A DNA stretch of 64,000 bases from Agromyces sp. ISL-38 (GTDB lineage: Bacteria > Actinomycetota > Actinomycetes > Actinomycetales > Microbacteriaceae), in the NCBI RefSeq assembly GCF_018613935.1, contig NZ_JAGGPF010000010.1, positions 558,001 to 622,000 of the forward strand. The letters run 5' to 3'. Below the pieces are notes generated by a model, which was not told the DNA's origin, searched no databases, and saw only the letters and a program-made list of their open reading frames with translations. Made by a program: the position numbers and the translations under genes. Positions 3 to 52,728 of the stretch are shown one piece after another. Position 1 is the first letter of the stretch, and each line of letters opens with the position of its first letter.

Positions 3-650
3 GCGACCGGCATGCCGTATCTCAAGCTCGACGAGCGGCCCACCGATCTCGCGACCCAGCAGGCCGCGGCATCCGTCGGGCAGAACCTGCTCGTGTTCCG
101 CTACCAGGACTCGCTCGACCGCTACGGCATCGTCGCGGGGCAGGTGCTCCTCACCGCGGGCGACCTCGAGAACCCCACGCCGCGCTCGAACGCGCAGCGC
201 GCGATGGACCGGCTGCTCGCGCTGAAGATCCTGCCGATCGTGAACGAGAACGACACCGTCGCGACCCACGAGATCCGGTTCGGCGACAACGACCGGCTCG
301 CGGCCCTCGTCGCCGAGCTGATCGGCGCCGACCTGCTCGTGCTGCTCTCCGACGTCGACGCGCTGTACACGAAGCCGCCGCACCTCGACGGGGCGAAGCG
401 CATCGAGCACGTGCCGTTCGGCGACGCCCTCACGGGCGTCGAGATCGGTTCGGTGGGACGCACCGGCGTCGGCACCGGGGGAGCGGAGACCAAGGTGTCG
501 GCGGCGCGCATCGCGGCCGAGGCCGGTGCCGCGGTGCTGATCACGGCGACGAGCCTCGTCGCCGACGCGCTGGCCGGACGCGAGGTCGGTACTTGGTTCG
601 AGCCCGCCCCCGAACGTCACACGGCCGACGGCGAACCGGCGCTCGCCTAG
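3..650 (+). CDS. proB: Glutamate 5-kinase, 3' part (5' end outside window)
   Basis: This is the C-terminal part of the enzyme that phosphorylates L-glutamate to gamma-glutamyl phosphate, the first step of proline synthesis. The reading frame is already open at the window edge, so the start lies upstream. Visible amino-acid kinase family motifs include IVNENDTVA, the FGDND segment and a GTGGAETK stretch near the C-terminus. The protein ends soon after the kinase fold, so it lacks the C-terminal PUA domain of the E. coli enzyme; this is the short, kinase-only form. proA follows after 9 bases, which supports the assignment. Confidence 0.95.
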   Translation, partial: ATGMPYLKLDERPTDLATQQAAASVGQNLLVFRYQDSLDRYGIVAGQVLLTAGDLENPTPRSNAQRAMDRLLALKILPIVNENDTVATHEIRFGDNDRLAALVAELIGADLLVLLSDVDALYTKPPHLDGAKRIEHVPFGDALTGVEIGSVGRTGVGTGGAETKVSAARIAAEAGAAVLITATSLVADALAGREVGTWFEPAPERHTADGEPALA

Positions 651-653
651 GCT
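648..653 (+). promoter_or_regulatory. Putative -10 element of proA overlapping the proB stop
   Basis: TAGGCT lies six bases before the proA ATG, the geometry of a leaderless transcript. Its first three bases are the proB stop codon. No Shine-Dalgarno sequence sits in front of proA. A recognisable -35 is not obvious. Confidence 0.5.
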
Positions 654-659
654 GATTCC

Positions 660-1928
660 ATGGAGCACCACGAAGTCGACACGAGCCTGATCGACGCGCG
701 GCTCGCTGCCGCGAAGGACGCGTCATTCCGGCTCGCGCAGGCGACGACGGCCGAGAAGGATGCCGCCCTCGAACAGGTTGCCGCGATCCTCCGGGAACGG
801 GCGGCCGACATCGTCGCCGCGAACGCGCTCGACCTCGCCGCCGGCCGCGATGCGGGTCTCGCCACAGGACTCCTCGACCGACTCGAACTCGACGAGCGCC
901 GGGTCGACGCACTCGCCGAGGCGGTGCTCGAGGTCATCGCGCTCACCGATCCGATCGGCGAGACCGTGAGTGGCCGGTCGCTGCCGAGCGGGATCCGCAT
1001 CGACCAGGTACGCGTGCCGCTCGGCGTCGTGGGCGCGATCTACGAGGCGCGACCGAACGTGACCGTCGACATCGCCGTGCTCGCGCTGAAGAGCGGCAAC
1101 GCGGTCGTGCTCCGCGGCGGCAGCGCGGCCGAGCAGACGAACCGGGTGCTCGTCGGAGTGCTGCGCGACGCGCTCGACGCGGTGGGTCTCCCCGCCGACG
1201 CCGTGCAGACCGTCGACGACTTCGGCCGCGCCGGTGCGCGCCATCTCATGCAGGCCCGCGACTACGTCGACGTGCTCATCCCGCGCGGGAGTGCCGGGCT
1301 CATCCGGGCCGTCGTCGACGAAGCGCGGGTGCCCGTCATCGAGACGGGCGCCGGGGTCGTGCACATGTTCCTCGATGAGAGCGCGCGGGAAGACTGGGCC
1401 GTCGAGCTCGTGCACAATGCGAAGGTGCAACGACCGAGCGTCTGCAATGCCCTCGAGACCCTGCTCGTGCACGAGGCGGCGGCTGAGCGGCTGCTGCCCG
1501 CGGTGCTCGACCGGCTCGAGGCATCCGGCGTCACGATCCATGGCGACGAGCGGGTGCGCGCACTCCGGCCGAACGCCCTTCCCGTCACCGACGAGGACTG
1601 GGCCACCGAGCACATGAGCCTCGACCTGTCGGTCGGCGTCGTCGACTCGATCGACGACGCGCTGCGGCACATCCGTCGCTATTCGACGAAGCACACCGAG
1701 TCGATCGTGACGAACGACCTCGGCAATGCGGAACGCTTCCTGAAGGAGGTGGATGCCGCGGCGGTCATGGTGAACGCCTCGACGCGCTTCACCGACGGCG
1801 CGGAGTTCGGATTCGGCGCCGAAGTCGGAATCTCGACGCAGAAGCTGCACGCGCGAGGGCCCATGGGACTGCCCGAGCTCACGAGCACGAAGTGGATCGT
1901 GCGCGGCGCCGGGCATGTGCGTGCCTGA
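660..1928 (+). CDS. proA: Gamma-glutamyl phosphate reductase
   Basis: A 422-residue aldehyde-dehydrogenase-fold enzyme that reduces gamma-glutamyl phosphate with NADPH to glutamate-5-semialdehyde, the second step of proline synthesis. Family landmarks are YEARPNVTVD near residue 126, KSGNAVVLRGG, and the catalytic cysteine in PSVCNALETLL near residue 260. FGFGAEVGISTQKLHARGP marks the C-terminal region. Length is normal for ProA. It follows proB by 9 bases. The start is the ATG six bases after a TAGGCT hexamer, so besides read-through from proB it may have its own leaderless transcript. Confidence 0.97.
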   Translation: MEHHEVDTSLIDARLAAAKDASFRLAQATTAEKDAALEQVAAILRERAADIVAANALDLAAGRDAGLATGLLDRLELDERRVDALAEAVLEVIALTDPIGETVSGRSLPSGIRIDQVRVPLGVVGAIYEARPNVTVDIAVLALKSGNAVVLRGGSAAEQTNRVLVGVLRDALDAVGLPADAVQTVDDFGRAGARHLMQARDYVDVLIPRGSAGLIRAVVDEARVPVIETGAGVVHMFLDESAREDWAVELVHNAKVQRPSVCNALETLLVHEAAAERLLPAVLDRLEASGVTIHGDERVRALRPNALPVTDEDWATEHMSLDLSVGVVDSIDDALRHIRRYSTKHTESIVTNDLGNAERFLKEVDAAAVMVNASTRFTDGAEFGFGAEVGISTQKLHARGPMGLPELTSTKWIVRGAGHVRA

Positions 1929-1934
1929 CCTCGC

Positions 1935-1940
1935 TAGACT
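1935..1940 (+). promoter_or_regulatory. Putative -10 hexamer for the small membrane protein/nadD group
   Basis: TAGACT just after the proA stop. The next start (1980) is about 40 bases on and has an AAAGGAA ribosome site, so this transcript would carry a short leader. Confidence 0.35.
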
Positions 1941-1979
1941 GTCCGGAGCGACACCCGCAGGATTCGAAAGGAACGGCGA

Positions 1980-2186
1980 ATGAGCCTCGTGACCGCAGTG
2001 CTGACCGAGACGGTGCACGCCAGGGAACTGCCGATCGACTCGTGGGTCTACGGTCTCATCGCGCTCGTCATCTTCGCTGTGCTCGCCATGATCGTCGCGT
2101 CGTACCGCGACGTGGCCAACCGCCACAGCAGCAGATCGGCAGCCTACGCTGCCCGCCACTCAGGAGACGAGCACGGCGGTCACTGA
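1980..2186 (+). CDS. Small single-pass membrane protein, unknown function
   Basis: A 68-residue protein with one clear hydrophobic helix (about residues 24-43, WVYGLIALVIFAVLAMIVAS) followed by a short polar tail rich in Arg, Ser and His. An AAAGGAA ribosome site precedes the ATG at good spacing. It lies between proA and nadD, 12 bases before the nadD GTG, so it is probably co-transcribed with nadD. I do not recognise a functional family. Codon usage matches its neighbours and favours a real gene. Confidence 0.7.
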   Translation: MSLVTAVLTETVHARELPIDSWVYGLIALVIFAVLAMIVASYRDVANRHSSRSAAYAARHSGDEHGGH

Positions 2187-2198
2187 GCGGGCGGTCGC

Positions 2199-2801
2199 GT
2201 GATCACGAGCGAGGAACGCCGACCACGGGTCGGTGTGATGGGTGGCACCTTCGATCCCATCCACCACGGGCACCTCGTGGCCGCGAGCGAGGTCGCTCAG
2301 CACCTCGAGCTCGATGAGGTCGTGTTCGTGCCCACCGGGCAGCCGAGCTACAAATCCGACGTCACGCAAGCCGAGCACCGGTATCTCATGACGGTCATCG
2401 CGACGGCGTCGAACCCGCGGTTCACCGTGAGCCGCGTCGACATCGATCGTCCGAAGCCGACGTTCACGATCGACACGCTCCACGACATCCGGAGCCAGCG
2501 CCCCGACGCCGACCTGTACTTCATCACCGGTGCCGACGCGATCGCCCAGATCCTCTCCTGGAAGAACGTCGGCGAACTCTGGGAACTCGCGCACTTCGTG
2601 GCTGTGAGTCGCCCGGGACATGTGCTCTCCGTTTCGGGTTTGCCAGAGCAAGACGTAAGCTTGTTGGAGGTTCCGGCACTTGCGATCTCGTCGACCGACT
2701 GCCGGGACAGGGTGCGCCGGGGATTCCCGGTGTGGTACTTGGTGCCCGATGGGGTCGTCCAGTACATCTCCAAGCACCATCTCTATCGGAGTGTCGAATG
2801 A
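2199..2801 (+). CDS. nadD: Nicotinate-nucleotide adenylyltransferase
   Basis: This enzyme joins nicotinate mononucleotide and ATP to make deamido-NAD in NAD synthesis. The N-terminal nucleotidyltransferase signature [12 protein letters not shown] carries the HxGH motif (HHGH). The mid-domain has FITGADA, and the C-terminal ISSTDCR matches the ISSTxxR motif of the family. At 200 residues it has typical length. The start is GTG. Its TGA overlaps the ATG of the next gene (ATGA), so the two are translationally coupled, and rsfS follows, the usual nadD-rsfS neighbourhood with one extra gene in between. Confidence 0.96.
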
Positions 2802-3943
2802 CGTCGTCACAGGAACCACCGCTCACGCGCCGCGAGGCTCGTGAGCGTGAGCGCCTGCGTGAGCAGCAGGCGCCCTCGACGACCCCCGAAGCCGCTCCCG
2901 CTCCGCGCGATCCGCAGGCCGATCAGCCCGTTCGGGCCGTCCCGCCGCAGCCTGCCGCACCGCCCGTGCAGCCGCCGCAGCAGCAGATCCCGGCCCCCAC
3001 GCCTGCGCCGGCCGCAGCTCCGGCCTATGCCGCTCCGCGCCCAGCAGGAGCGTCCGGCCAGCAGCCGTCGCCGTTCGGGGGAGCCGTCGCCGCACCGCAG
3101 CAGAACCCGTTCGCACCCAGGTATCCGCAGCCCGCTGCACCTGCCGCGCCGCCGACGCCCGCCGCGCCCTCCCAGTTCGGGTCGCCGTTCCCGGCGCCGT
3201 CGTCGCCCGCGCAGCGCCAACCGAGCGTCGAGACCAGCGCCCCCGAGCGCACGCTGACGCGACGCGAGCTCCGGGCGATGCTCGATGCGCAGCACGAGCA
3301 TGAACTCGACCTCGACGACGAGGTCATCGCGACACCGCCCGCTGCAGCAGCTCCCACGGAGCATCCGTTGCTGTCGCCTCCCGTTCCGACTCGAGCACCG
3401 GCGCCGCACCAGCCGGCCGCCGACGTGAGCCTCGCCGCCGACGCCGTCGTGGCGCAGAAGCCCGTCGGTCACTGGACTGCACAGCTGAACGTGCCGGCCG
3501 ATCGCGCCGAGCCGTTCGACCAGTTGCTCTCACGTGGCGGCGTGAGCCACGGCGTTCCGACCACCACGAACGCGCTCATCCTGCCGTCGCTGCCGAATCA
3601 GGCGCCGGTCGGCAACAATCCGCTTGCATCGAGCGGTGAGATCATCGTCACCGGATCGATCAACCTGCCGCGCAGTTACGGCGCGACGGGCGTGCACCCG
3701 AGCCACATCGACTCGAGCGACGTCGACCGGCTGTTCGACCAGGTCGAAGACGGCGCAGGCACCGGCGGCGCGCCGATCGCAGCGACACGCGCCATCAGCA
3801 CCCAGGGCGCCGCTCGCGCGATGATGGCTCCGCCGAAGAAGGAGGGCGTGAACGCCCCCCTCGTGCTCGCCGTCACTGCCGGCGTGCTCGCACTCGGCGT
3901 CGTCGCCACACTCGTCATCGGTGCCGTCGCCGGCCTCTTCTGA
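2798..3943 (+). CDS. Pro/Ala-rich protein with C-terminal membrane anchor, unknown function
   Basis: A 381-residue protein. Its start is the ATG overlapping the nadD stop; the upstream in-frame codons would extend it into nadD and are unlikely. The N-terminus is charged ([14 protein letters not shown]), and a second copy of this motif, [21 protein letters not shown], occurs near residue 150. Between and after them lie long Pro/Ala/Gln-rich low-complexity stretches. One hydrophobic helix at the extreme C-terminus (about residues 355-380) should anchor it with most of the protein in the cytoplasm. It is coupled to nadD and precedes rsfS. No catalytic motif is visible, and function is unknown. 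Confidence 0.75.
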
Positions 3944-3987
3944 GCTGGGGCATCCACATCGACTTCTCAGAATCCGGAAAAGAGCGT

Positions 3988-4362
3988 ATGACCGCATCAC
4001 ACGAGGCACTCGACTTGCTCGCCATCGCGGCGCGGGCGGCAGACTCCAAGGGCGGTGAAGACCTGGTGGCACTCGACGTGTCGGGTCCGCTGCCGTTCGC
4101 CGACATCTTCCTGCTGGTCACCGGCAACTCCGAGCGCAACGTCGTCGCCATCGCCGACGAGGTCGAGGAGGTGCTCGGCCGTTCCGGAACCCAGACCCGT
4201 CGTCGCGAGGGTCACGACGCCGGCCGCTGGATCCTGCTCGATTTCGGCGACCTGGTGGTGCACGTCTTCCACCAGGAGGAGCGCCTCTACTACGGCCTCG
4301 AACGGCTCTGGCTCGACTGCCCGTCGCTGCCCGTCGCACCGCTCCTGGCAGCGAGCAGCTGA
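3988..4362 (+). CDS. rsfS: Ribosomal silencing factor RsfS
   Basis: A 124-residue member of the RsfS/Iojap family, which binds ribosomal protein uL14 on the 50S subunit and blocks subunit joining under poor nutrition. Typical landmarks are the N-terminal alpha-helix with LAIAARAADSKGGEDLVALD, the FADIFLLVTGNSERNV core, and the C-terminal GRWILLDFGDLVVHVFHQEERLYYGLERLW block. Length is normal. It lies 44 bases after the Pro/Ala-rich protein in the nadD neighbourhood where rsfS usually sits. Confidence 0.96.
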   Translation: MTASHEALDLLAIAARAADSKGGEDLVALDVSGPLPFADIFLLVTGNSERNVVAIADEVEEVLGRSGTQTRRREGHDAGRWILLDFGDLVVHVFHQEERLYYGLERLWLDCPSLPVAPLLAASS

Positions 4363-4421
4363 GTACAGCCGCGAGCATCCGCCGAGCGGGCCTCGATTTC
4401 ATCCGAGACCTGCGGCTGGTG

Positions 4422-4427
4422 TAAGCT
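4422..4427 (+). promoter_or_regulatory. Putative -10 element of tRNA-Ala
   Basis: TAAGCT lies 27 bases before the mature 5' end of tRNA-Ala and matches the TANNNT pattern of this window. No clear -35 is visible. Confidence 0.3.
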
Positions 4428-4454
4428 CAATTCGTTGCCTCGAACGGGGCGTAC

Positions 4455-4530
4455 GGGTCTGTGGCGCAGCTGGTAGCGCACCTGCATGGCATGCAGGGGG
4501 TCAGGGGTTCGAGTCCCCTCAGATCCACCA
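4455..4530 (+). tRNA. tRNA-Ala (anticodon GGC), CCA encoded
   Basis: The sequence folds as a cloverleaf. The acceptor stem GGGTCTG pairs with CAGATCC with one G-T wobble. The anticodon stem CCTGC/GCAGG holds the loop ATGGCAT, giving anticodon GGC that reads GCC alanine codons. The T arm AGGGG-TTCGAGT-CCCCT is canonical. ACCA follows the acceptor stem, so the 3' CCA is encoded. A strong terminator follows at once. Confidence 0.96.
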
Positions 4531-4533
4531 AGA

Positions 4534-4564
4534 ACCCCTGATCCCAAGTTGATCAGGGGTTTTT
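4534..4564 (+). terminator. Rho-independent terminator after tRNA-Ala
   Basis: A 10-bp perfect stem (ACCCCTGATC pairing with GATCAGGGGT) with a 7-base loop is followed by a run of T at 4560-4564. Confidence 0.9.
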
Positions 4565-4929
4565 CTCGTCTCACTCAGAAGAGATCCTCGCCGGGCAGCT
4601 CGGCGAGGATCGCGGATCCAGCTCGGAATGAGCTCCTCGTGGAGCTCCTCATCCTCATGGAGGTCGAGGTACCGTACGCGCTCATGCTTGGACTCGCCCG
4701 GAGGGAGCGGGCCCAGCGATGAGCCGTTGAGCTAGACACCGCGTTTCCGTCCCGGCATCGCGTCGATATAGGCCGCAGCAGGCTACCGGGTGGCAATCAG
4801 CTCGACCTGAGGCTCGTCGACACAATCGGAGCGTGGGCGCGTCGCGTCCGGGCACGGATGTCACGCCCAATAGGGTTGACCCGCCCGTCTCCACACCCGC
4901 AACACCTTGAACGATTGCCGCGCCCTGAC
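4565..4929. other. Gene-poor strip after tRNA-Ala; possible decayed gene end on the minus strand
   Basis: No intact gene is evident in these 365 bases. On the minus strand (about 4720 down to 4572) one frame reads like a natural acidic/basic C-terminus (ERVRYLDLHEDEELHEEL, then IPSWIRDPRRAA) that ends in TGA. A TAG stop lies about 60 codons upstream in frame, and no ATG or GTG lies between. It may be the remnant of a lost gene. The rest shows no recognisable coding or RNA signal. Confidence 0.3.
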
Positions 4930-5628
4930 ATGCCCCGCTCCTCCCGAATCATCCCCGGCGCCATCGTCGCCTTTCTGTTCGTCGCACTCCTCGTCTGGAC
5001 GGGCGCCTGGAATCCGCTGACGGAGGCGTTCGCCGACGCCTTCGGCATCGAGGTCGAGGCGAGCGGGGATGCTGCAGCCGCCCTCGCCGAGCTCGACACC
5101 GTCACGGTGAAAGGCAAGGCGCCGATGACGGGCTACGACCGTGAAGGCATGTTCGGCACCGCATGGATCGACAGCGACCGCAACGGATGCGACCAGCGCA
5201 ACGATGTTCTCGACCGCGATCTGATGGCCAAGACGTACGAGCCCGACACGCGCGATTGCGTCGTGATCACCGGCACTCTCGATGATCCGTACACAGGCGT
5301 GACCATCCGATTCACGCGCGGGCAGGACACCTCCACTGCGGTGCAGATCGACCACATCTACCCTCTGGGCATGGCGTGGCGTCAGGGGGCGCAACAGTGG
5401 ACTCAGGATCAACGCATCGCGTTCGCCAACGACTTCGACAACCTCGTCGCCGTCGACGGTCCCGCGAACGGGCAGAAGGGCGATTCCGGCCCCGCTGCCT
5501 GGCTGCCATCGAACAAGAGGTATCGCTGCGAGTACGTCATCGACTTCGTCGAGGTCACCGCGAAGTACGACCTCTCGATGCCGCAACCGGATGTCGACGC
5601 CGCCCGTCGCGTCCTCGAGGGCTGCTGA
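4930..5628 (+). CDS. Membrane-anchored or secreted HNH-type nuclease family protein (DUF1524-like)
   Basis: A 232-residue protein starting with an N-terminal hydrophobic segment (about residues 8-25, IPGAIVAFLFVALLVWTGAW) that acts as signal peptide or anchor. The extracytoplasmic part matches the actinobacterial HNH/DUF1524 family: RNGCDQRNDVLDRDL, then VQIDHIYPLGMAW with the His of the H-N-H site, FANDFDNLVAVDG, and WLPSNKRYRCEYV. Family members are predicted nucleases; the actual substrate here is unknown. The ATG at 4930 is chosen over the in-frame one at 4858 because it places the hydrophobic segment at the N-terminus. It stands alone downstream of a gene-poor strip. Confidence 0.85.
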   Translation: MPRSSRIIPGAIVAFLFVALLVWTGAWNPLTEAFADAFGIEVEASGDAAAALAELDTVTVKGKAPMTGYDREGMFGTAWIDSDRNGCDQRNDVLDRDLMAKTYEPDTRDCVVITGTLDDPYTGVTIRFTRGQDTSTAVQIDHIYPLGMAWRQGAQQWTQDQRIAFANDFDNLVAVDGPANGQKGDSGPAAWLPSNKRYRCEYVIDFVEVTAKYDLSMPQPDVDAARRVLEGC

Positions 5629-5654
5629 CGCGAAGACGGGACGTATGCTGAAGC

Positions 5655-6152
5655 ATGGACATTCGCGACATCCCCTTCACGACGATCGACGGCGACCCGA
5701 CGTCACTGGCCGAGTGGGCCGACGACGTGGTGCTGGTCGTGAACGTGGCCTCGCGGTGCGGGCTGACGCCCCAGTACGAACAGCTCGAAGCGTTGCAGCG
5801 TGAATACGGCCCGCGCGGATTCACGGTCCTCGGGTTCCCGTGCAACCAGTTCGCCGGGCAGGAGCCGGGCGGCGCCGACGACATCAAGGAGTTCTGCTCC
5901 ATGACCTACGGTGTGACCTTCCCGCTCATGGAGAAGGTCAAGGTCAACGGCCGGAACCGGCATCCGCTCTATGCAGAGCTCACGACCGTTCACGACGCCA
6001 GGGGCAAGGCCGGGCGCGTCAAGTGGAACTTCGAGAAGTTCGTGATCCAGCCCAGCGGAGAGGTGCAGCGGTTCCGCCCCGACGTCCTCCCGAATGATCG
6101 GGCGATCATCGCGGCGATCGAGCGTGGCCTCGCCGACGAAGCGGCCGCCTGA
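5655..6152 (+). CDS. Glutathione peroxidase family thiol peroxidase
   Basis: A 165-residue peroxidase that reduces hydroperoxides. The peroxidatic cysteine is in NVASRCGLTPQY (near residue 36), in the position where mammalian enzymes use selenocysteine. The conserved FPCNQFAGQEPG segment and WNFEKFV (Trp of the catalytic tetrad) are present. Bacterial Cys-type enzymes of this family usually draw electrons from thioredoxin rather than glutathione; this is family knowledge, not visible here. A TATGCT hexamer five bases before the ATG suggests a leaderless transcript. Confidence 0.95.
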   Translation: MDIRDIPFTTIDGDPTSLAEWADDVVLVVNVASRCGLTPQYEQLEALQREYGPRGFTVLGFPCNQFAGQEPGGADDIKEFCSMTYGVTFPLMEKVKVNGRNRHPLYAELTTVHDARGKAGRVKWNFEKFVIQPSGEVQRFRPDVLPNDRAIIAAIERGLADEAAA

Positions 6153-6192
6153 CCGATCGTCCGAGCGGCATCGCATCGCACGGCGCGCTGTC

Positions 6193-6221
6193 TTGACCAC
6201 TCATGGCGCGCGGCCCACAAT
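6193..6221 (+). promoter_or_regulatory. Putative sigma70-type promoter
   Basis: TTGACC (6193-6198) and CACAAT (6216-6221) are separated by 17 bases, upstream of the gene starting at 6259. This is one of the few places in the window with a good -35. Confidence 0.5.
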
Positions 6222-6258
6222 TGGGGGTCTATCCGATTGCAGGGAGCGTGAGGAACGG

Positions 6259-6768: not shown

Positions 6769-6827
6769 GCCTCCTCTCCACGCGAGCGAGGGGCATGGCC
6801 TGGTGCGGGCGGCCTAGAGAGAGCGGC

Positions 6828-23449: not shown

Positions 23450-23455
23450 TAGCAT
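23450..23455 (+). promoter_or_regulatory. Putative -10 element of the ABC ATPase gene
   Basis: TAGCAT lies seven bases before the ATG at 23463; no ribosome site is evident, which fits a leaderless mRNA. Confidence 0.4.
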
Positions 23456-25461: not shown

Positions 25462-25467
25462 AGGCTA
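25462..25467 (-). promoter_or_regulatory. Putative -10 element of the exonuclease gene
   Basis: TAGCCT on the minus strand, six bases before the ATG at 25455; leaderless geometry. Confidence 0.4.
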
Positions 25468-28524: not shown

Positions 28525-29331
28525 ATGCACATCGAGCGAGTCCGCGACGCGGCATCCGACACCGTCGCCGACTACGCGCGGCTCACCGACGTGACCCTGC
28601 GGAGTGTGAACGAGCCCGAGCGGGGGCTCTACATCGCCGAGTCGGCGAGGGTCATCCGCAGGGCGATCGCCGCGGGGCACCGGCCGCGCTCGGTGCTCAT
28701 GGAGGAGAAGTGGCTGCCAGGACTGCAGGAGGCCCTTGCCCCGTTCGACATCCCGGTGCACCTCGCCGACCCCGACCAGCTCGAGGCGATCACCGGGTAT
28801 CGCGTGCACCGCGGGGCCCTCGCCGCGTTCGAGCGGCCTGAGCTGCCCGATCCCGCGGAGCTGCTCGCCGGGGCGCGCCGTGTCGTGGTGCTCGAGGACA
28901 TCGTCGACCACACGAACGTCGGCGCGATCTTCCGCTCGGTCGCGGCGCTCGGCGCCGATGCGGTGTTCATCAGCCCTCGCTGCGCCGATCCGCTCTATCG
29001 CCGGAGCGTTCGCGTGAGCATGGGCACGGTCTTCCAGGTGCCGTGGACCCGGCTGCCCGAGTGGCCTGAGGCGGAACGGATGCTGCGCGCCCATGATTTC
29101 GCCATCGCCGCGCTCGCCCTCGCAGACGAGGCCGTCTCGCTCAGGGCCCTCGCGGCCGATCCGCCCGCCCGGCTCGCCGTCGTGTTCGGCGCCGAGGGCG
29201 ACGGGCTCAGCCGGAACGCACTTGCGGCAGCCGACACGGTCGTCACGATCCCGATGTCGCACGGTGTCGACTCCCTGAACGTCGCGGCCGCCGCCGCCGT
29301 CGTGCTCTACGCGCTCAGCGCCGACGATTAG
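28525..29331 (+). CDS. SPOUT (TrmH/SpoU) family RNA 2'-O-methyltransferase
   Basis: A 268-residue SAM-dependent methyltransferase acting on tRNA or rRNA ribose. An N-terminal substrate-binding domain covers about residues 1-95. The SPOUT domain has motif 1 VDHTNVGAIFRSVAALGAD, motif 2 VFGAEGDGLS, and motif 3 IPMSHGVDSLNVAAAAAVVL, the trefoil-knot signature. The exact nucleotide modified cannot be told. A GAGGAG ribosome site lies four bases before the ATG. Its TAG stop is part of the -10-like hexamer of the next gene. Confidence 0.93.
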   Translation: MHIERVRDAASDTVADYARLTDVTLRSVNEPERGLYIAESARVIRRAIAAGHRPRSVLMEEKWLPGLQEALAPFDIPVHLADPDQLEAITGYRVHRGALAAFERPELPDPAELLAGARRVVVLEDIVDHTNVGAIFRSVAALGADAVFISPRCADPLYRRSVRVSMGTVFQVPWTRLPEWPEAERMLRAHDFAIAALALADEAVSLRALAADPPARLAVVFGAEGDGLSRNALAAADTVVTIPMSHGVDSLNVAAAAAVVLYALSADD

Positions 29332-29334
29332 GCT
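29329..29334 (+). promoter_or_regulatory. Putative -10 element overlapping the methyltransferase stop
   Basis: TAGGCT, seven bases before the carboxypeptidase ATG; its first three bases are the stop codon of the upstream gene. Confidence 0.5.
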
Positions 29335-29341
29335 CGAACGG

Positions 29342-30634
29342 ATGTCACAGCAGTTGCCGACCCTCTCGCGCGAGCGCCGACCCGATCGCACCAAGACCTA
29401 CCGGCGCCGGCGCATCGTCGTCTTCGGCTCACTCGCGGTGGTGCTCGCCCTGCTGCTCACCGGCGGCGTGTACGCGGGCAACGCGCTCGGCGCTCCGATC
29501 CCCGCTGCGCAGCCGTCGGTGTCGACTCCCGATCAGATCGTCGCACCGGCGCAACCGCTCGCACTGCCGGGCTTCGGCGGCTACGCGGTCGGAGCCGTCG
29601 GATTCGACGGCCTGCTCGCCGCGAGCCCCGACCAGTCGCTCATGCCCATCGCGAGCATCACGAAGATCGTCACGGCACTGCTCATCCTCGAGGCCAAGCC
29701 GCTCGCGACGGGTGAGGAGGGCCCCGGCATCGAGTACACCGAAGCCGACGTCGATCTCTACTGGCAGGTCGTCGCCGAGAACGGCTCGGTCGCCCCCGTC
29801 AGCGCGGGGAGCACCTTGAGCGAGCGGCAGAGCCTCGCGGCGATGCTCCTCGCGTCGGGCAACAACTACGCCATCTCCCTCGCGACCTGGGCGTACGGGT
29901 CGATGGAGGCGTTCCTCGACGCCGCCCGAGGCTGGCTCGATGAGCACGGGCTCGAGAACACCCGGCTCGTCGATTCGAGCGGTATCTCGCTCGACAACGT
30001 GAGCACGCCCGCCGAGCTCGTCGAACTCGGCGAGATCGCCCTCGCCGACCCAACGGTCTCCGAGCTCGCCGCGACGCAGAGCATCGACCTGCCCGTGATC
30101 GGCACCGTCAAGAACTCGAACAAGATGCTCGGCACCCACGGCGTCGACGGCATCAAGACGGGCACGACCGACGACGCGGCGAACCTGCTGTTCTCCGCGG
30201 ACTACCCGGTCGGCTCCCAGGTCGTCACGGTCGTCGGCGTGGTGCTCGGCGGCGAGAACCACACCGTGCTCGACGAGGCCATCGCCGCCCTCCTCGACAG
30301 CATCGCGCCCGGATTCCACGAGGTCACGGCGCTCGAGGCCGGCCAGGAGCTGGCGTCGTATTCCACGGCGTGGGGCGACACCGCCCATGCACGTGCGGCG
30401 GAAGGGGCATCCGTCGTCATCTGGAGCGACACCCCGGTCGACGTCGAGGTCGTGGCCGCTCCAGTCACCGTCGCGGCGAGCGGCGCCGAGGTCGGTACGG
30501 CAACGGTGCGAGCCGGCACGCAGGAGATCCGCGTCGCGCTCGAGCTCGACGCGGCGATCGAGGATCCGGGCGCTTGGTGGCGATTGTCGAATCCCGGTGC
30601 CCTCGAAGCAGGGGCTCAGCCGCCGCGCGAGTAG
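29342..30634 (+). CDS. D-alanyl-D-alanine carboxypeptidase (S11, DacA-like)
   Basis: A 430-residue extracytoplasmic enzyme that trims the terminal D-Ala of peptidoglycan stem peptides. An N-terminal membrane anchor (about residues 22-45, VVFGSLAVVLALLLTGGVYA) precedes the catalytic domain. Its three penicillin-binding motifs are visible: SITK (SxxK) near residue 105, SGNN (SxN) near 175, and KTGTT (KTG). A C-terminal Ala/Val-rich domain follows, without a membrane helix at the end. Its 3' end overlaps the convergent SGNH hydrolase gene by 19 bases. Confidence 0.95.
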   Translation: MSQQLPTLSRERRPDRTKTYRRRRIVVFGSLAVVLALLLTGGVYAGNALGAPIPAAQPSVSTPDQIVAPAQPLALPGFGGYAVGAVGFDGLLAASPDQSLMPIASITKIVTALLILEAKPLATGEEGPGIEYTEADVDLYWQVVAENGSVAPVSAGSTLSERQSLAAMLLASGNNYAISLATWAYGSMEAFLDAARGWLDEHGLENTRLVDSSGISLDNVSTPAELVELGEIALADPTVSELAATQSIDLPVIGTVKNSNKMLGTHGVDGIKTGTTDDAANLLFSADYPVGSQVVTVVGVVLGGENHTVLDEAIAALLDSIAPGFHEVTALEAGQELASYSTAWGDTAHARAAEGASVVIWSDTPVDVEVVAAPVTVAASGAEVGTATVRAGTQEIRVALELDAAIEDPGAWWRLSNPGALEAGAQPPRE

Positions 30635-43234: not shown

Positions 43235-43248
43235 GGTCATACCCCAGT

Positions 43249-43359: not shown

Positions 43360-43367
43360 ACACATCG

Positions 43368-43451: not shown

Positions 43452-43561
43452 ATGTGTCTGGCCACCCGATCGCTCGGAGGCCCGAGAGAAGACATTAGCA
43501 CGGATTACTGGGTGCCTCGAACGCCGGCAGGGCCCCGCTGGTCGCCGTCTGCGGTGGCGGC

Positions 43562-43567
43562 TAGCGT
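43562..43567 (+). promoter_or_regulatory. Putative -10 element of the M20 peptidase gene
   Basis: TAGCGT, seven bases before the ATG at 43575; leaderless geometry. Confidence 0.4.
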
Positions 43568-43574
43568 GAAGTTC

Positions 43575-44900: not shown

Positions 44901-44948
44901 CGGTCTCGATCCTCCGGCGTTCCGCGGAGGCGGAAGGCGGATGCCCAC

Positions 44949-45767: not shown

Positions 45768-45774
45768 CGAATGA

Positions 45775-45800
45775 CGGATGCCGCGGCGCCGCGGCATCCG
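45775..45800. terminator. Perfect 26-bp palindrome between convergent genes
   Basis: CGGATGCCGCGGC followed directly by its complement, with no spacer, lies between uppP and the PAC2 gene. As RNA it forms a long GC hairpin from either strand. It contains both GGATGC and GCATCC words. There is no T run. Confidence 0.65.
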
Positions 45801-45830
45801 CCGGCGTGCGACCTCAGCGGCACGGCCGCA

Positions 45831-46760: not shown

Positions 46761-46821
46761 TCCTGGTGCCCCGCTTCCCGCCCCGGATCTCCGGGTTCCC
46801 CTCCACAATAGGCCGTGCCCG

Positions 46822-46827
46822 TAGACT
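46822..46827 (+). promoter_or_regulatory. Putative -10 element of the HAD hydrolase gene
   Basis: TAGACT, eight bases before GTG 46836. It argues for that codon rather than the in-frame GTG at 46815. Confidence 0.45.
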
Positions 46828-46835
46828 TGCGGGTT

Positions 46836-47510
46836 GTGACTACACGCCTGCCTGCCGCCGTCCTCTGGGACATGGACGGAACCCTCGTCGACACCGAGCC
46901 GTACTGGATGACCGCCGAAGAGGAGCTCGTGGGCTCCTTCGGCGGCACCTGGACCCATGAAGACGCCCTCGCGCTCGTCGGCACCGGCCTGTGGGAGGCT
47001 GCGACGGTGTTCCAGTCCTTCGGCGTCGACCTCGATGCCGACACGATCGTCGCGCGCCTCACCGGGCGCGTGAGCGAGCAGCTCGTCGCGCACGGCGTGC
47101 CGTGGCGCCCGGGGGCGCGCGAACTGCTCGAGGCGCTGCGCGAGGCATCCGTTCCCACGGCGCTCGTCACGATGTCGGTCCGGTCGATGGCCGATGAGGT
47201 CGTGGCCGCGATCCCGTTCGAGGCGTTCGACGTGATCGTCACGGGCGATTCGGTGACGGAGGCCAAGCCTCACCCCGAGCCCTACCTCACCGCCGCCGCC
47301 GAGCTCGGCGTCGACATCCGCGATTGCGTCGCCATCGAGGATTCGCCTGCCGGCGTCATGTCGGCCTTCAGTGCCGGGGCCGTGGTGGTCGGCGTGCCGA
47401 ACATCCTGTCGCTCGACGACACGCCCGCGAGCGTGCTCTGGACGACCCTCGCCGGCAAGTCGGTGGCGGATGTCGCAGCGCTCGTGCCTGCACGGGAGAA
47501 GAGCCGATGA
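46836..47510 (+). CDS. HAD-superfamily phosphatase
   Basis: A 224-residue haloacid-dehalogenase-fold hydrolase of the beta-phosphoglucomutase/phosphoglycolate phosphatase type. Motif I is LWDMDGTLVDTEPYW, motif II lies in ALVTMSVRS, motif III the Lys in EAKPHPEPYL, and motif IV CVAIEDSPAGVMSAFSAG. A helical cap lies between residues about 20 and 90. The substrate, a small phosphorylated metabolite, is unknown. GTG 46836 is preferred because of the hexamer eight bases upstream. Its stop overlaps the trmI start (ATGA). Confidence 0.93.
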   Translation: MTTRLPAAVLWDMDGTLVDTEPYWMTAEEELVGSFGGTWTHEDALALVGTGLWEAATVFQSFGVDLDADTIVARLTGRVSEQLVAHGVPWRPGARELLEALREASVPTALVTMSVRSMADEVVAAIPFEAFDVIVTGDSVTEAKPHPEPYLTAAAELGVDIRDCVAIEDSPAGVMSAFSAGAVVVGVPNILSLDDTPASVLWTTLAGKSVADVAALVPAREKSR

Positions 47511-48574
47511 GCGAGCCGGTCAGCGAGTCCACGCACGAACCGACGAACGAGCCCAGGCATGAGAGCAGGGGCCAGCAGAGCGGCCCGTTCCGCGTGGGCG
47601 ACCGCGTGCAGCTGACCGGCCCGAAGGGCCGCATGCACACGATCACCCTCCAGCCCGGTGCCCTCTTCCACTCGCACAAGGGCCCGATCGCGCACGACGA
47701 TCTCATCGGGCTGCCAGACGGCTCCGTCGTCGCGAACAAGGTCGGAATCGAATACCTCGCCCTCCGGCCCTTGCTCAGCGACTTCGTCATGTCGATGCCG
47801 CGCGGCGCGGCGATCGTCTATCCGAAGGACGCGGCGCAGATCCTCGCGCAGGCCGACATCTTCCCCGGCGCCACCGTCGTCGAGGCCGGAGTGGGCTCCG
47901 GCGCGTTGTCGCTCTGGCTGCTTCGCGGGATCGGCCCCGCGGGTCGCCTGCTCTCGTTCGAGCGCCGTGAGGAGTTCGCCGATGTCGCGCGCGGCAACGT
48001 CGCAACCTTCCACGGCGCCGACCCCGAGAACTGGTCGATCACCCTGGGCGACCTCGCCGAGGTGCTGCCCGACCTGGCGCCCGAGGCATCCGTCGACCGC
48101 GTCGTGCTCGACATGCTCGCGCCGTGGGAGTGCCTCGACGTCGTCTCGACGGCGCTGAAGCCGGGCGGCGTGCTGCTCTGCTACATCGCGACCGCCACGC
48201 AGCTCTCCCGGGTCGCCGAGGCGATCCGGGCGACGGGGGAGTACACCGAGCCGAGCTCGAGCGAGACGATGGTGCGCGGCTGGCACGTGCAGGGGCTCGC
48301 GGTTCGGCCCGACCACCGCATGATCGCGCACACCGGATTCCTCATCACCGCCCGCCGCCTCGCGCCGGGCACGGTGCTGCCCGAGCTCAAGCGCCGTCCA
48401 TCGAAGACCGAGTTCAGCGACGAGGATTTCGAGGCGTGGACCCCGGGCGCCCTCGGCGAGCGATCGGTCAGCGACAAGGCGTTGCGCAAGCGCGTCAGGG
48501 CTGCGGATGCCGCTGCCGAGCGCTCCCGTGCGGGGAACGGCCCGGGCACCGAACCCCCGGCCGAAGCCGGGTAG
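47507..48574 (+). CDS. trmI: tRNA (adenine-58-N1) methyltransferase
   Basis: A 355-residue SAM-dependent enzyme that makes m1A58 in the T loop of tRNAs. The N-terminal beta domain includes FRVGDRVQLTGPKGRMHTIT and GAAIVYPKDAAQILAQADIF. The SAM fold has VVEAGVGSGALSLWLLRGIG and VDRVVLDMLAPWECLD. An extended N-terminal tail (about 25 polar residues) and a charged C-terminal tail are present. It is coupled to the HAD gene by ATGA. Its TAG stop is shared with a TAGGCT hexamer of the next gene. Confidence 0.95.
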   Translation: MSEPVSESTHEPTNEPRHESRGQQSGPFRVGDRVQLTGPKGRMHTITLQPGALFHSHKGPIAHDDLIGLPDGSVVANKVGIEYLALRPLLSDFVMSMPRGAAIVYPKDAAQILAQADIFPGATVVEAGVGSGALSLWLLRGIGPAGRLLSFERREEFADVARGNVATFHGADPENWSITLGDLAEVLPDLAPEASVDRVVLDMLAPWECLDVVSTALKPGGVLLCYIATATQLSRVAEAIRATGEYTEPSSSETMVRGWHVQGLAVRPDHRMIAHTGFLITARRLAPGTVLPELKRRPSKTEFSDEDFEAWTPGALGERSVSDKALRKRVRAADAAAERSRAGNGPGTEPPAEAG

Positions 48575-48577
48575 GCT
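48572..48577 (+). promoter_or_regulatory. Putative -10 element overlapping the trmI stop
   Basis: TAGGCT whose first three bases are the trmI stop. The FKBP gene starts about 50 bases on, so its transcript would carry a leader. Confidence 0.4.
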
Positions 48578-48625
48578 TTCAACGACTTTTCACCGCCCCC
48601 GCGACCATCGAAGAATCGAGGATCA

Positions 48626-49570
48626 GTGCGCTCGTCTCTCGCGCTCATCGCCACCGCCGGCCTCGTCGCCGTCGCGCTCTCCGGTTGCGCCGCCGCGCCT
48701 GCACCCCAGGCTTCGGCGGGCGACTCGTCCGATGCCGTCACCGTGTCGGGCAAGTTCGGCGAGGCACCGAAGGTCGATTTCCCGACGCCGCTGTCGCCGG
48801 GCGAGACGCAGTGCACCGAGGTCATCGCAGGCGAAGGGGAGCTGCTCCAGGAGGGCCAGCTCGTGCTGCTCGGCGCGTCGTTCTTCAATGGCACCACTGG
48901 TGAGGAGCTGCGGGCCATCGGCTACGACGACCAACCAGCGCCGCTCGCACTCGGCGGTGAGAAGACGGCGATCGCCTTCACGAAGGGCCTGAGTTGTGCC
49001 CGAGAGGGTTCCCGCGTCGTGATCGTGGCTCCCTCGGAAGAGATCATCCCCCCGGGTGAAGATCCGGAGAGTGCCAAGGGCGGCGACAGCATCGTGGCGG
49101 TGTTCGACGTGCAGCGCGCGTTCCCGGGTCACGCCAATGGAACGCCTCAGCTCACGCGCGACGGGTTCCCGGCAGTCGTACTCGCGCCCGACGGTCGACC
49201 AGGAATCACCGTGCCGAAGGGTGATCCGCCGACGAAGAAGGAGTCCGAGGTCGAGGTGCTGAAGCGGGGCGCCGGTGGGGTCGTCGAAGACGGCGACACG
49301 GTCGTCGCGCAGTACACGGGAGTAACTTGGGCCGACGGAAAGGTCTTCGACTCGAGCTGGAAGAGCGGCACGCCGGTGACGTTCACCGTCGGTACCGGCG
49401 AGGAGTCACAAGTGGTTCCTGGCTTCGCGAAGGCGATCATCGGGCAGAAGGTCGGCTCCCAGGTCGCCGTGATCGTGCCGCCGTCCGAAGGCTACGGCGA
49501 CCAAGCCAGCGAAAAGATCCCGGCCGGCTCCACCCTGTTCTATGTCATCGACATCCTGGGTACCTACTGA
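48626..49570 (+). CDS. FKBP-type peptidyl-prolyl isomerase lipoprotein
   Basis: A 314-residue exported lipoprotein. The signal peptide ends in ALSGC, a lipobox with the lipidated Cys near residue 20. The C-terminal FKBP domain (about 215-314) has DTVVAQYTGVTWADGKVFDS, VPGFAKAIIGQKVGSQVAVI, and PPSEGYGDQASEKIPAGSTL. It speeds up proline isomerisation in folding exported proteins. Residues about 60-160 look like a degenerate second FKBP domain. The start is GTG. It precedes pafBC as in other actinobacteria. Confidence 0.94.
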   Translation: MRSSLALIATAGLVAVALSGCAAAPAPQASAGDSSDAVTVSGKFGEAPKVDFPTPLSPGETQCTEVIAGEGELLQEGQLVLLGASFFNGTTGEELRAIGYDDQPAPLALGGEKTAIAFTKGLSCAREGSRVVIVAPSEEIIPPGEDPESAKGGDSIVAVFDVQRAFPGHANGTPQLTRDGFPAVVLAPDGRPGITVPKGDPPTKKESEVEVLKRGAGGVVEDGDTVVAQYTGVTWADGKVFDSSWKSGTPVTFTVGTGEESQVVPGFAKAIIGQKVGSQVAVIVPPSEGYGDQASEKIPAGSTLFYVIDILGTY

Positions 49571-49606
49571 GCCCGTGCAGGCAGCCATTGCCCGCCCGCG
49601 GGCCAG

Positions 49607-49612
49607 TATGAT
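49607..49612 (+). promoter_or_regulatory. Putative -10 element of pafB
   Basis: TATGAT, seven bases before GTG 49620 and near the TATAAT consensus. It suggests a leaderless pafBC mRNA and makes the overlapping ATG at 49608 an unlikely start. Confidence 0.5.
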
Positions 49613-49619
49613 CGCACGT

Positions 49620-50645
49620 GTGGCTGGTGGAGGGGGCAAGGGCGATTCGAGGATCCCGGTCGAGGATCGTCTCTTCAGTCTCGTGCTCGCGTTGCTCGCA
49701 ACCGAGACCGGGCTGCTGAAGGCCGAGATCCTCTCGACGGTGCGTGGCTATGCCGAGCGTTTCGACACCTCGGGGCAGAACGCCAACCTCGAGCGGCAGT
49801 TCGAGCGCGACAAAGACGACATCCGCGAGCTCGGCATCCCGCTCGAGACCGTGGAGTCGCCCGATCGGCCCGGCGACAACCAGGCCCTGCGATATCGCAT
49901 CCCGAAGGGGCAGTACGACCTGCCCGACGAGGTGCGCTTCACTCCCGACGAGCTCGCGCTGCTCGGCCTCGCCGCAGAGGTCTGGCGCGAGGCATCCCTC
50001 TCGGCCGACTCCCAGCGCGCGCTCACCAAGCTGCGCTCGCTCGGCATCGAGCCTCGTGACCCCGTCATCGGCTATGCGCCGAGGCTCCGAGTTCGGGATG
50101 CCGCGTTCGAACCGCTCCGCCAGGCACTCGACCGTCGCCAGACGGTGCGATTCCGGTACTTCAAGCCCGGGGAGCCCGAGGCGAGGCTCCGCACGGTCAA
50201 TCCGCTCGCGGTCATCCTCCACGAGAGCCGTTGGCATCTGCACGCGTTCGACCTCGACGCCAACGGCCCCCGCACGTTCCTGCTCTCCCGCATCATCAAA
50301 GCGGTGACTCCGGTCGCCGGTTCCACGTTCGAGGCGCCGCCTGCCGGCATCCAAGACCGGGTGATCGCCGAGCTCAACGAACTCCGGTTGCGGAACAGTG
50401 CCGACCTCGCGGTCACCGCCGGTAGCGACGCCGAGGTGCGACTCGGCAAGCGAGCCGTCGAGGGCGACGAAGACGCCGGCGTCATCCGGCTCCATTACAC
50501 GGATGCCGCAGTGCTGGCCGATGAGCTCGCCGCCTACGGTCCCGAGGTGCGCGTGCTCTCACCCGAGTCATTGCGTGAGGCGGTGCGCGAGCGCTTACGC
50601 GCCGTCGCCGCGGCCCACCGCGACGGCGTGGAGGAGGCATCCTGA
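49620..50645 (+). CDS. pafB: WYL-domain transcriptional regulator PafB
   Basis: A 341-residue HTH-WYL protein. The N-terminal winged helix (EDRLFSLVLALLATETGLLK, ERDKDDIRELGIPLETV) is followed by a WYL domain near residues 150-240 (VRFRYFKPGEPEARLRTVNP, RWHLHAFDLDANGPRTFLLS). A C-terminal extension domain follows. With PafC it forms the PafBC activator that turns on LexA-independent DNA-damage genes in mycobacteria. No proteasome genes are nearby, as in other actinobacteria that keep PafBC without it. Its TGA shares one base with the pafC ATG. Confidence 0.94.
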   Translation: MAGGGGKGDSRIPVEDRLFSLVLALLATETGLLKAEILSTVRGYAERFDTSGQNANLERQFERDKDDIRELGIPLETVESPDRPGDNQALRYRIPKGQYDLPDEVRFTPDELALLGLAAEVWREASLSADSQRALTKLRSLGIEPRDPVIGYAPRLRVRDAAFEPLRQALDRRQTVRFRYFKPGEPEARLRTVNPLAVILHESRWHLHAFDLDANGPRTFLLSRIIKAVTPVAGSTFEAPPAGIQDRVIAELNELRLRNSADLAVTAGSDAEVRLGKRAVEGDEDAGVIRLHYTDAAVLADELAAYGPEVRVLSPESLREAVRERLRAVAAAHRDGVEEAS

Positions 50646-51664
50646 TGGCCAAGCGCACCAAGCCCCTGAAGGCGCCCGACAAGCTCGTCTTCCTGCTCTC
50701 GTTCGTGCCCTACCTGCTCGAACAGCGGGTCGTCGACGTGGCGGAGGCCGCCCAGCACTTCGGGATGACCGAAGAAGAGATCCGCGATGCAGTGCGTCTC
50801 ATCGCAACCTCGGGCCTGCCCGGCGCCACGGGCACCTACCAGCCGAACGATCTCTTCGACATCGACTGGGACTCGTTCGAAGACGATGACGTGATCGTGA
50901 TCGTGCACCATGTCGCGATCGACGACGCACCGAGGCTCTCGGCGCGTGAGGCCGCGGCGCTCATCGCGGGCCTGCAATACCTCTCGGCTTCGCCCGAGAA
51001 CGCGAGCAGCGCCTCGCTCGCCTCGCTCATGGCGAAACTCACGGCGGGGGCCTCCGCAGCACCAAGTCGACTCGCCGTTGCCGAGACCGAGGCCGACTCG
51101 TCGCTCGCCGTCATCCGCAGCGCGGTGACCGGCGGCCGACAGCTCGAGTTCGACTACCGCAACGCACTCGGGCAGGCGGGTCGCCGTCGCGTCGATCCGT
51201 TGCGCATCCTCTCGCAAGACGCCGACTGGTACCTGCAGGCCTACTGCCACACGCGCGAAGACGTGCGCAACTTCCGCGTCGACCGCATGAGCGGTCTCGC
51301 GGTGACCGAAGTGCCGATCGACGACCATTCCGATCGTGAGGTGCCTGACACGCTCTTCCAGGTCTCGGACTCCGACCTCGACGTCGTCGTCGACGTCGCC
51401 CCCGAGACGATTCCGTTGCTCGCCGATTACCTCGCCGACTCCACATCCGTCGAGGTCGACGGGCGGATGCGGGTGACGCTGCGGCTCGCCCACGTGCATG
51501 GGTTGAAGCGGCTCGTCGCGGGCCTGCCGGGCCTCGTCACGGTCGTCGCACCGGCCGAGGCGCGCGCCGTCGTAGCCGAGTGGGCGACCGCCGGACTCGC
51601 GGGATATGGTGACGAGGCGCCCCCGCTCGGCGACGAGAACGGCGCGGAGACCCCCGACAGGTAG
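50645..51664 (+). CDS. pafC: WYL-domain transcriptional regulator PafC
   Basis: A 339-residue paralogue of PafB and its partner. The N-terminal helix-turn-helix (LLEQRVVDVAEAAQHFGMTE) is followed by a WYL domain with LEFDYRNALGQAGRRRVDPL and DWYLQAYCHTREDVRNFRVD. It starts one base into the pafB stop (TGATG), ensuring equal synthesis. The WYL domain is thought to bind single-stranded DNA as the damage signal. Its TAG stop is the start of a TAGACT hexamer in front of tatA. Confidence 0.94.
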   Translation: MAKRTKPLKAPDKLVFLLSFVPYLLEQRVVDVAEAAQHFGMTEEEIRDAVRLIATSGLPGATGTYQPNDLFDIDWDSFEDDDVIVIVHHVAIDDAPRLSAREAAALIAGLQYLSASPENASSASLASLMAKLTAGASAAPSRLAVAETEADSSLAVIRSAVTGGRQLEFDYRNALGQAGRRRVDPLRILSQDADWYLQAYCHTREDVRNFRVDRMSGLAVTEVPIDDHSDREVPDTLFQVSDSDLDVVVDVAPETIPLLADYLADSTSVEVDGRMRVTLRLAHVHGLKRLVAGLPGLVTVVAPAEARAVVAEWATAGLAGYGDEAPPLGDENGAETPDR

Positions 51665-51667
51665 ACT
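51662..51667 (+). promoter_or_regulatory. Putative -10 element overlapping the pafC stop
   Basis: TAGACT begins with the pafC stop codon; tatA starts 36 bases further. Confidence 0.4.
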
Positions 51668-51703
51668 GTCGTCACCCATCCTCCGAGAAACGGACGAACA
51701 CCT

Positions 51704-51922
51704 ATGTGGCAAGGCTTCACTGGTTGGCACGCGCTGATCATCCTCGTGGTCATCCTGCTGCTCTTCGGCGCGCCCAAGCTCCCCGCGCTCGCGCGCAGCC
51801 TCGGCCAGTCGATGAAGATCCTGAAGAGCGAGGTGCGCTCCGACAAGGTTGACGGCGAAGCGCCCGCCGCAGGCGACGCGCCGGCCAGCTCCGAAGAGCC
51901 GGATTCCGGCAAGAAGTCCTGA
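51704..51922 (+). CDS. tatA: Sec-independent translocase subunit TatA
   Basis: A 72-residue TatA protein of the twin-arginine pathway, which exports folded proteins. One N-terminal membrane helix (WHALIILVVILLLFGAPKLP) has the FGAPKLP hinge, followed by the amphipathic helix ALARSLGQSMKILKSEVRSD and an acidic tail. tatC follows after 5 bases. No tatB is present in the window. Confidence 0.96.
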   Translation: MWQGFTGWHALIILVVILLLFGAPKLPALARSLGQSMKILKSEVRSDKVDGEAPAAGDAPASSEEPDSGKKS

Positions 51923-51927
51923 CTCCG

Positions 51928-52725
51928 GTGACCGCGGTGAAAGATCGCGGCGAGAAGAACCGCGAGAAGCGGATGTCGCTCGGTCAGCATCTGATCGAGC
52001 TGCGCAAGCGCCTCTTCATCTCCGCGATCGCAATCGTCGTCGGCGCAGGCCTGGGCTGGTGGCTCACCGACCTGTTCGTCTGGAAGGCGATCCAGGAACC
52101 CGTGCAGCGCGTTGCCGATGCGCAGGGCTCCGACACGGCGATCATCTTCCCGACGATCTCGAGCGGGTTCGACCTGCTCCTGCAGATCGCGTTCACGCTC
52201 GGTCTCGTGATCTCGAGCCCGGTGTGGCTGTACCAGATCTTCGCATTCCTCGTGCCGGGGCTGAACAAGCGTGAACGCCGCTTCACGCTCGCCTTCTTCG
52301 CGACGGCGATCCCGCTGTTCTTCGCGGGCTGTGCCGCCGGATGGTTCGTGCTGCCGAACATCGTCAAGCTCATGACGGGCTTCGTGCCCGAAGGTGCATT
52401 GTCGCTCCTGACCGCGAAGGAGTACATCGACTTCGTCCTGAAGCTCGTGGTCGCGATCGGCGTCGCCTTCGTCGTGCCGGTCTTCATCGTGCTGTTGAAC
52501 GCCGCGGGCATTCTCAGCGCCGCGGCGATCATCAAGTCGTGGCGGGTCGCGATCCTCGTGATCGTGCTCTTCACGGCCATCGCGACGCCGTCGGCCGACA
52601 TCGTGTCGATGTTCATGCTGGCGATCCCGATGATCGCGCTGTACTTCGCGGCGTGGTTCATCGCCCATTTGCACGATCGCCGTGTCGAACGGCGGAACGC
52701 CCGCGAATTCGGGGCGGCTGTCTAG
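51928..52725 (+). CDS. tatC: Sec-independent translocase subunit TatC
   Basis: A 265-residue six-helix membrane protein that recognises twin-arginine signal peptides. The family N-terminus is MSLGQHLIELRKRLF, preceded by 14 charged residues. Hallmarks are PTISSGFDLLLQIAFTLGLV, the FLVPGLNKRERR cytoplasmic loop, and the PSADIVSMFMLAIPMIALY region near the end. The start is GTG. Its TAG stop doubles as the first three bases of a TAGGCT hexamer in front of the helicase gene. Confidence 0.96.
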   Translation: MTAVKDRGEKNREKRMSLGQHLIELRKRLFISAIAIVVGAGLGWWLTDLFVWKAIQEPVQRVADAQGSDTAIIFPTISSGFDLLLQIAFTLGLVISSPVWLYQIFAFLVPGLNKRERRFTLAFFATAIPLFFAGCAAGWFVLPNIVKLMTGFVPEGALSLLTAKEYIDFVLKLVVAIGVAFVVPVFIVLLNAAGILSAAAIIKSWRVAILVIVLFTAIATPSADIVSMFMLAIPMIALYFAAWFIAHLHDRRVERRNAREFGAAV

Positions 52726-52728
52726 GCT
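52723..52728 (+). promoter_or_regulatory. Putative -10 element overlapping the tatC stop
   Basis: TAGGCT begins with the tatC stop and lies six bases before the helicase GTG; leaderless geometry. Confidence 0.5.

Follow-up and report, generated by a model that had tools for sequence, protein, structure and literature searches.

Can the stop codon that ends one gene also serve as part of the promoter of the next? The question is raised by a 64 kb stretch of the soil actinobacterium Agromyces sp. ISL-38 (contig NZ_JAGGPF010000010.1, positions 558,001 to 622,000; GC 69.3%; genome 3.72 Mb), referred to here as the window. A preliminary description of the window had pointed out five junctions at which a TAG stop forms the first three bases of a TANNNT hexamer ahead of the next gene, and had proposed that these hexamers are -10 promoter elements and that selection holds TAG in place to give the downstream gene its own leaderless transcript. 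All five hexamers lie where they had been reported, and in independent gene calls each TAG is the stop codon of a gene:

648..653, + strand: proB stop (648-650) and putative -10 element of proA, TAGGCT; proA ATG at 660, 6-nt spacer, leaderless spacing
29329..29334, + strand: SpoU-methylase stop (29329-29331) and putative -10 element of the peptidase S11 carboxypeptidase gene, TAGGCT; ATG at 29342, 7-nt spacer
48572..48577, + strand: trmI stop (48572-48574) and putative -10 element of the FKBP gene, TAGGCT; GTG at 48626, 48 nt past the hexamer, leadered
51662..51667, + strand: pafC stop (51662-51664) and putative -10 element of tatA, TAGACT; ATG at 51704, 36 nt past the hexamer, leadered
52723..52728, + strand: tatC stop (52723-52725) and putative -10 element of helY, TAGGCT; GTG at 52735, 6-nt spacer

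We conclude that the hexamers are probably -10 elements of the housekeeping-sigma type on which upstream reading frames happen to end. The grounds for this conclusion are the enrichment of the arrangement, its spacing, its conservation, its fit to a simple model and the alternation of two junction states among relatives. Promoter activity at the five sites, translation of leaderless transcripts and the relative age of promoter and stop are inferred from these sequence comparisons.

Identity of the five junctions

Pfam domains at these places (SpoU methylase, peptidase S11, TrmI, FKBP, PafC, TatA, DEAD/DSHCT helicase and amino-acid kinase) agree with the gene assignments; TIGR00407 matched proA and PF00902 matched tatC. 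For proB and helY the names come from the preliminary description, and the Pfam domains are consistent with both. Among named contigs, the closest tatC match was to Agromyces (A. albus, 97%), though the source genome itself may be absent from that comparison.

A start codon 6-7 nt past the hexamer was confirmed at three of the five junctions, so that proA, the carboxypeptidase gene and helY have TANNNT at the distance of about 12 nt expected of leaderless genes. The proposal of a leaderless transcript thus fits these three by spacing but does not extend to FKBP and tatA, whose transcripts would carry a leader. The accompanying statement that nearly all other stops in the window are TGA was too strong: the 63 genes in or touching the window end on TGA in 45 cases, TAG in 15 and TAA in 3, and 10 of the TAG stops are not followed by NNT. 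The window also contains unfused promoters of leaderless type, with TAGNNT 12-13 nt before called starts at 23450 and 55186 (+ strand) and at 25467 and 36115 (- strand), where the TAG is not the stop of a neighbour.

TAG stops and the hexamer are enriched at one spacing

To place these junctions in a wider setting, we collected 1409 genes from 862 kb of the source genome and from 40 stretches of 20 kb, picked without viewing their content, from 40 other genomes (34 genera) of Microbacteriaceae. Genes were called from coding potential and start-codon type only, with no use of the TANNNT motif. TANNNT began at -12 or -13 in 188 of the 1409 genes, compared to 9.4 expected from positions -17 to -40; this spike is the leaderless architecture already known from Actinobacteria. 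In other families of the class it was clear in four of five groups, the fifth having 2 of 52 genes; a small-genome group of the class (L216, L217) was excluded, having no called genes.

The excess of TAG followed by NNT before start codons, which the preliminary description had proposed to count, is present and depends on spacing. The set holds 921 same-strand junctions, 29 of them with a gap of 9-10 nt, compared to 12 with a gap of 7-8 nt and 14 with a gap of 11-12 nt. At gaps of 9-10 nt the stop was TAG in 21 of 29 cases, compared to 163 of 640 at other gaps of zero or more (Fisher p=3.4e-7), and T at +6, the last base of the hexamer, followed 17 of these 21 TAG stops but only 26 of 163 elsewhere (p=3.2e-9; both in the pooled set). 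For TGA stops, T at +6 occurred in 1 of 6 cases at this gap and 57 of 416 elsewhere. The source genome alone gave the same picture for TAG (15/20 vs 82/357, p=2.8e-6) and for T at +6 (11/15 vs 14/82, p=3.2e-5); in the other genomes alone the TAG difference was weak (6/9 vs 81/283, p=0.023) and that for T at +6 was strong (6/6 vs 12/81, p=3.7e-5). A second form of sharing, in which the stop begins with the final T of the hexamer (TANNNTGA or TANNNTAG, gap 4), was seen in 3 of the 1409 genes: at L080:6302 (- strand), at L085:11348 (- strand) and in the C2 stretch of the source genome.

Among leaderless-type genes, Shine-Dalgarno-like (SD-like) sites preceded 8 of the 169 that are unfused and 3 of the 19 that are fused, compared to 112 of 178 genes at -4 overlaps. 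The lack of such a site that marks leaderless genes therefore holds overall, helY being an exception with GGAGG before an in-frame ATG, and the same 3 of 19 speaks against the stop bases being part of a ribosome-binding site. We also considered TGA stops doubling as -35 elements (TTGACA), for which there were a few candidates at gaps of 30-36 nt; the idea was dropped for want of -35 enrichment around the promoters.

The hexamer persists where the stop moves

We then compared orthologous junctions; of 81 loci, 63 were kept for trmI/FKBP, 64 for pafC/tatA and 69 for tatC/helY. Loci within the genus share ancestry and are not independent events. Across genera, proA had TANNNT at -12/-13 in 26 of 29 loci, each of a different genus (one of 30, L142, was left out, its match beginning at residue 70). 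The proB stop fell on this hexamer in 4 of the 25 loci with a proB match, the 5 of 30 without one being left out; in several of the cases scored as upstream the match was ~400-960 nt distant and the proB frame uncertain, and in L116, L122 and L133 a long open frame not assigned to proB ends on the hexamer. Within the genus the hexamer was at -12 of proA in 20 of 20 loci (17 TAGGCT, 1 TAGACT, 2 TAAGCT, no TGA). Upstream frames were counted here if already open at the left edge of the 285-301 base piece; such a frame ended on the hexamer in 19 of these 20 and in L260 none did.

The helY junction behaved similarly. As read from the sequences, the hexamer was present in all 30 genus loci (29 TAGGCT, 1 TAGTCT) with GTG or ATG beginning 12 nt downstream of the hexamer's first base, while the tatC stop was fused with the hexamer in 22 loci and lay 13-31 nt upstream in the remaining 8 (4 TGA, 4 TAG). 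Across genera, 29 of 30 tatC loci were assessed: 3 were fused, 1 was T-sharing, 7 had the promoter with an upstream stop, and 18 had no TANNNT at this distance, 11 of which are, by reading, overlapping TGA/start junctions. These patterns point to the promoter hexamer, rather than the fused stop, as the probable conserved element, and in the orthologues the hexamers behave as the -10 elements they had been proposed to be. In three genus loci (L222, L228, L229) 'gtcTAG' occurs twice, 13-22 nt apart, with one copy as the stop and the other as the putative -10, as if a dual element had been split by duplication. In the window, helY has two adjacent possible starts (52723-52740): GTG 52735 at leaderless distance and the in-frame ATG 52738 after GGAGG. 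The GTG might serve a leaderless transcript and the ATG a read-through transcript.

The two leadered sites differed from each other. The trmI stop is itself part of a TANNNT hexamer in 59 of 63 family loci (28/29 in Agromyces, 31/34 in others), spread over at least seven named genera that include Cryobacterium, Glaciibacter, Leifsonia, Curtobacterium, Schumannella and Humibacter. T at +6 was found in 59 of 59 trmI TAG/TAA stops, with positions 3-5 variable (TAGGCT, TAGGAT, TAGAAT, TAGCAT and TAAGAT, among others) and an interval of 37 to ~133 nt before FKBP. Together with the 30/30 helY and 20/20 proA genus loci, this indicates constraint on TANNNT as a -10 element. The 4 exceptions have TGA stops, with TAGNNT readable further on in three (L322, L331, L349). 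Several Cryobacterium loci, among them L314, L315 and L319, have TAGGAT followed directly, within the FKBP leader, by a short inverted repeat (GGGC...GCCC). At pafC/tatA, the pafC stop in Agromyces is on a TANNNT hexamer in 17 of 31 loci and TGA in 14, and TAGACT (30/31) or TAGAGT (1/31) is readable ~40 nt before tatA in all 31.

The SpoU/carboxypeptidase junction switches between states. Within the genus the stop was TAG on TAGGCT in 4 of 20 loci (one with an 8-nt spacer) and TGA in the other 16, mostly overlapping the next start codon by reading. Across genera, 16 loci were assessed, the 14 of 30 without the carboxypeptidase being left out: 4 were fused, 1 T-sharing, 7 had the promoter with an upstream stop and 4 lacked the promoter. 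A quick FastTree analysis of tatC loci with one outgroup gave at least 4 changes between junction states, under a single coding that scored T-sharing and 8-nt-spacer forms as fused. Since junctions alternate between TAG with a promoter and an overlapping TGA, the identity of the stop goes with the likely expression mode of the next gene.

Why the stop is TAG

The composition of the promoters themselves offers an explanation. The third base of 169 unfused leaderless-type -10 elements was G in 93, C in 42, T in 19 and A in 15. TAG is thus the commonest beginning of a Microbacteriaceae -10 element in the absence of any gene end, and 64% of these elements spell a stop codon where no gene ends. Because about two thirds of -10 elements start with a stop codon and other stops are sparse in 69% GC DNA, a frame that reaches a promoter in register ends there. 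Under this explanation, a -10 element (TANNNT, mostly TAG[G/A]CT) would provide the downstream gene with a transcript of its own, lacking a leader at three of the five junctions, and an upstream frame meeting it in the right register would terminate on its first three bases.

In a model of this stop trap, a frame enters each of 139 unfused promoters 60 nt before the start, in all three frames, and runs to the first stop. The output for stops upstream, on the hexamer and T-sharing was 92 : 71 : 15, or 21.7 : 16.8 : 3.5 when scaled, and the observed counts for gaps up to 57 nt were 20 : 19 : 3 (p=0.77); the outcome depends on this cut, which was changed from 48 nt to match the 60-nt entry point. 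Frames reading past the promoter, however, were 2 of 44 compared to 57% expected (p=9.5e-14). The feature that needs explaining is therefore the missing read-through class and not the frequency of fusion. Past-promoter junctions would be avoided, or turned into translationally coupled ones (overlapping TGA, often with an SD-like site) that no longer show the promoter; read-through junctions seem to end up in this coupled TGA state. A fused TAG, once it had both functions, should resist change.

Of the proposal that selection holds TAG, the conserved hexamers and the enrichment of TAG followed by NNT stand. There is no need to invoke selection for TAG as a stop, since 93 of 169 unfused -10 elements begin with TAG, the fused count fits a model of the first in-frame stop, and the hexamer outlives relocation of the stop.

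Weighing the alternatives

Several points weigh against termination on pre-existing promoters. First, the gene calls are home-made. Second, fused cases are rare outside the family (3 of 625 genes, and none of the 161 genes from other families of the order). Third, there was no -35 consensus: matches to TTGACA at 4 or more of 6 positions occurred in 0 of 19 fused, 24 of 169 unfused and 111 of 1221 control genes; a weak -35 has been reported in C. glutamicum (PMC3890552). Fourth, with the narrower cut (gaps to 48 nt) the counts for upstream, on the hexamer, T-sharing and past were 13/19/3/2, numerically more fused than expected. Lastly, the near-constant trmI/FKBP fusion may exceed what a passive trap predicts, unless constraint on the C-terminus explains it.

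The last point bears on a stronger reading that we regard as possible but hold only tentatively, in which selection maintains the fused stop/-10 as a dual element: TGA would go with coupling and TAG with an own promoter, junctions would switch between these states, and trmI/FKBP would be held family-wide since losing either function is harmful. A related proposal, that selection favours ending the upstream gene on TAG since fusion itself is useful (compactness, separated translation, an own leaderless transcript within a gene series), appears unlikely. It would account for the retention of trmI/FKBP in 59 of 63 loci and at least seven named genera with an invariant T at +6, and for the lack of TGA among the 20 genus proB/proA hexamers, but the stop-trap model accounts for the fusion frequency without an extra term, 8 of 30 helY loci keep the hexamer with no stop on it, the proB stop is mostly elsewhere across genera (4/25 fused), and 93 of 169 -10 elements begin with TAG with no stop role at all.

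The reverse order of events, in which TAG or TAA stops already lying 9-10 nt ahead of a start turned into promoters once position +6 had mutated to T, is improbable and is disfavoured as the main route. A single base would suffice, as a TA-type stop already supplies half of TANNNT, and in the portion of the mycobacterial study available new TANNNT boxes arise readily by mutation (PMC6728331). This scenario would explain T at +6 but leaves the surplus of junctions at a gap of 9-10 nt (29 vs 12 and 14) unaccounted for, and the proA, helY and tatA hexamers are also present where the stop lies elsewhere. That base composition or gene calling produced the pattern is very hard to credit: the motif is short and starts were called by a home-made program, but the signal is spacing-dependent (T at +6 in 26/163 TAG stops at other gaps and 1/6 for TGA at 9-10 nt), the caller was blind to the motif and orthologues conserve the hexamer, so that start calls would have to be systematically wrong.

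Significance and comparison with known systems

If termination on promoters is correct, a single trinucleotide links the point where translation of one gene ends with the onset of transcription of the following gene. This would give a simple rule for promoter placement inside compact, high-GC gene series, aid start annotation, call for caution on free exchange of stop codons in recoded actinobacterial genomes, and account for a small share of TAG stops (17 of the 187 found at same-strand junctions). If the element is in addition selected for its dual role, part of TAG usage in high-GC actinobacteria would be dictated by the neighbour's promoter. Since T at +6 plays no part in coding, the shared element is easily tested.

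In the literature searched, with subscription papers and preprints outside its scope, we found no description of a stop codon serving as a -10 element. In the portions of the cited papers available, the components are already known: leaderless TANNNT promoters, overlap of stop and Shine-Dalgarno motif, coupling, and new TANNNT boxes arising by mutation. Leaderless genes with TANNNT ~12 bp before the start have been described, with Actinobacteria the most notable group (PMC3160421), and their hexamer and spacing are the same as here. Deinococcus-Thermus promoters adjoining reading frames (PMC12340547) are alike in having the -10 directly before the start and in leaderless expression; the available text contains neither the term 'stop codon' nor the term 'upstream gene'. 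The sub-operons of Corynebacterium glutamicum (PMC3890552) are alike in the TAnnnT -10, in leaderless mRNAs and in starts inside gene series; those starts were measured by RNA sequencing, with no link to stop codons in the available text, whereas ours are inferred from sequence. A further parallel is the way in which short intergenic spacers and the choice of stop are adapted to the Shine-Dalgarno motif, with TGA/TAG favoured at 5-8 nt (PMC2784483). There, as here, the stop shares bases with the signal of the next gene, shifting both stop usage and spacing. Unlike that ribosome-binding site, the signal shared here, at 9-10 nt and with SD-like sites mostly absent (3/19), would be a promoter of transcription.

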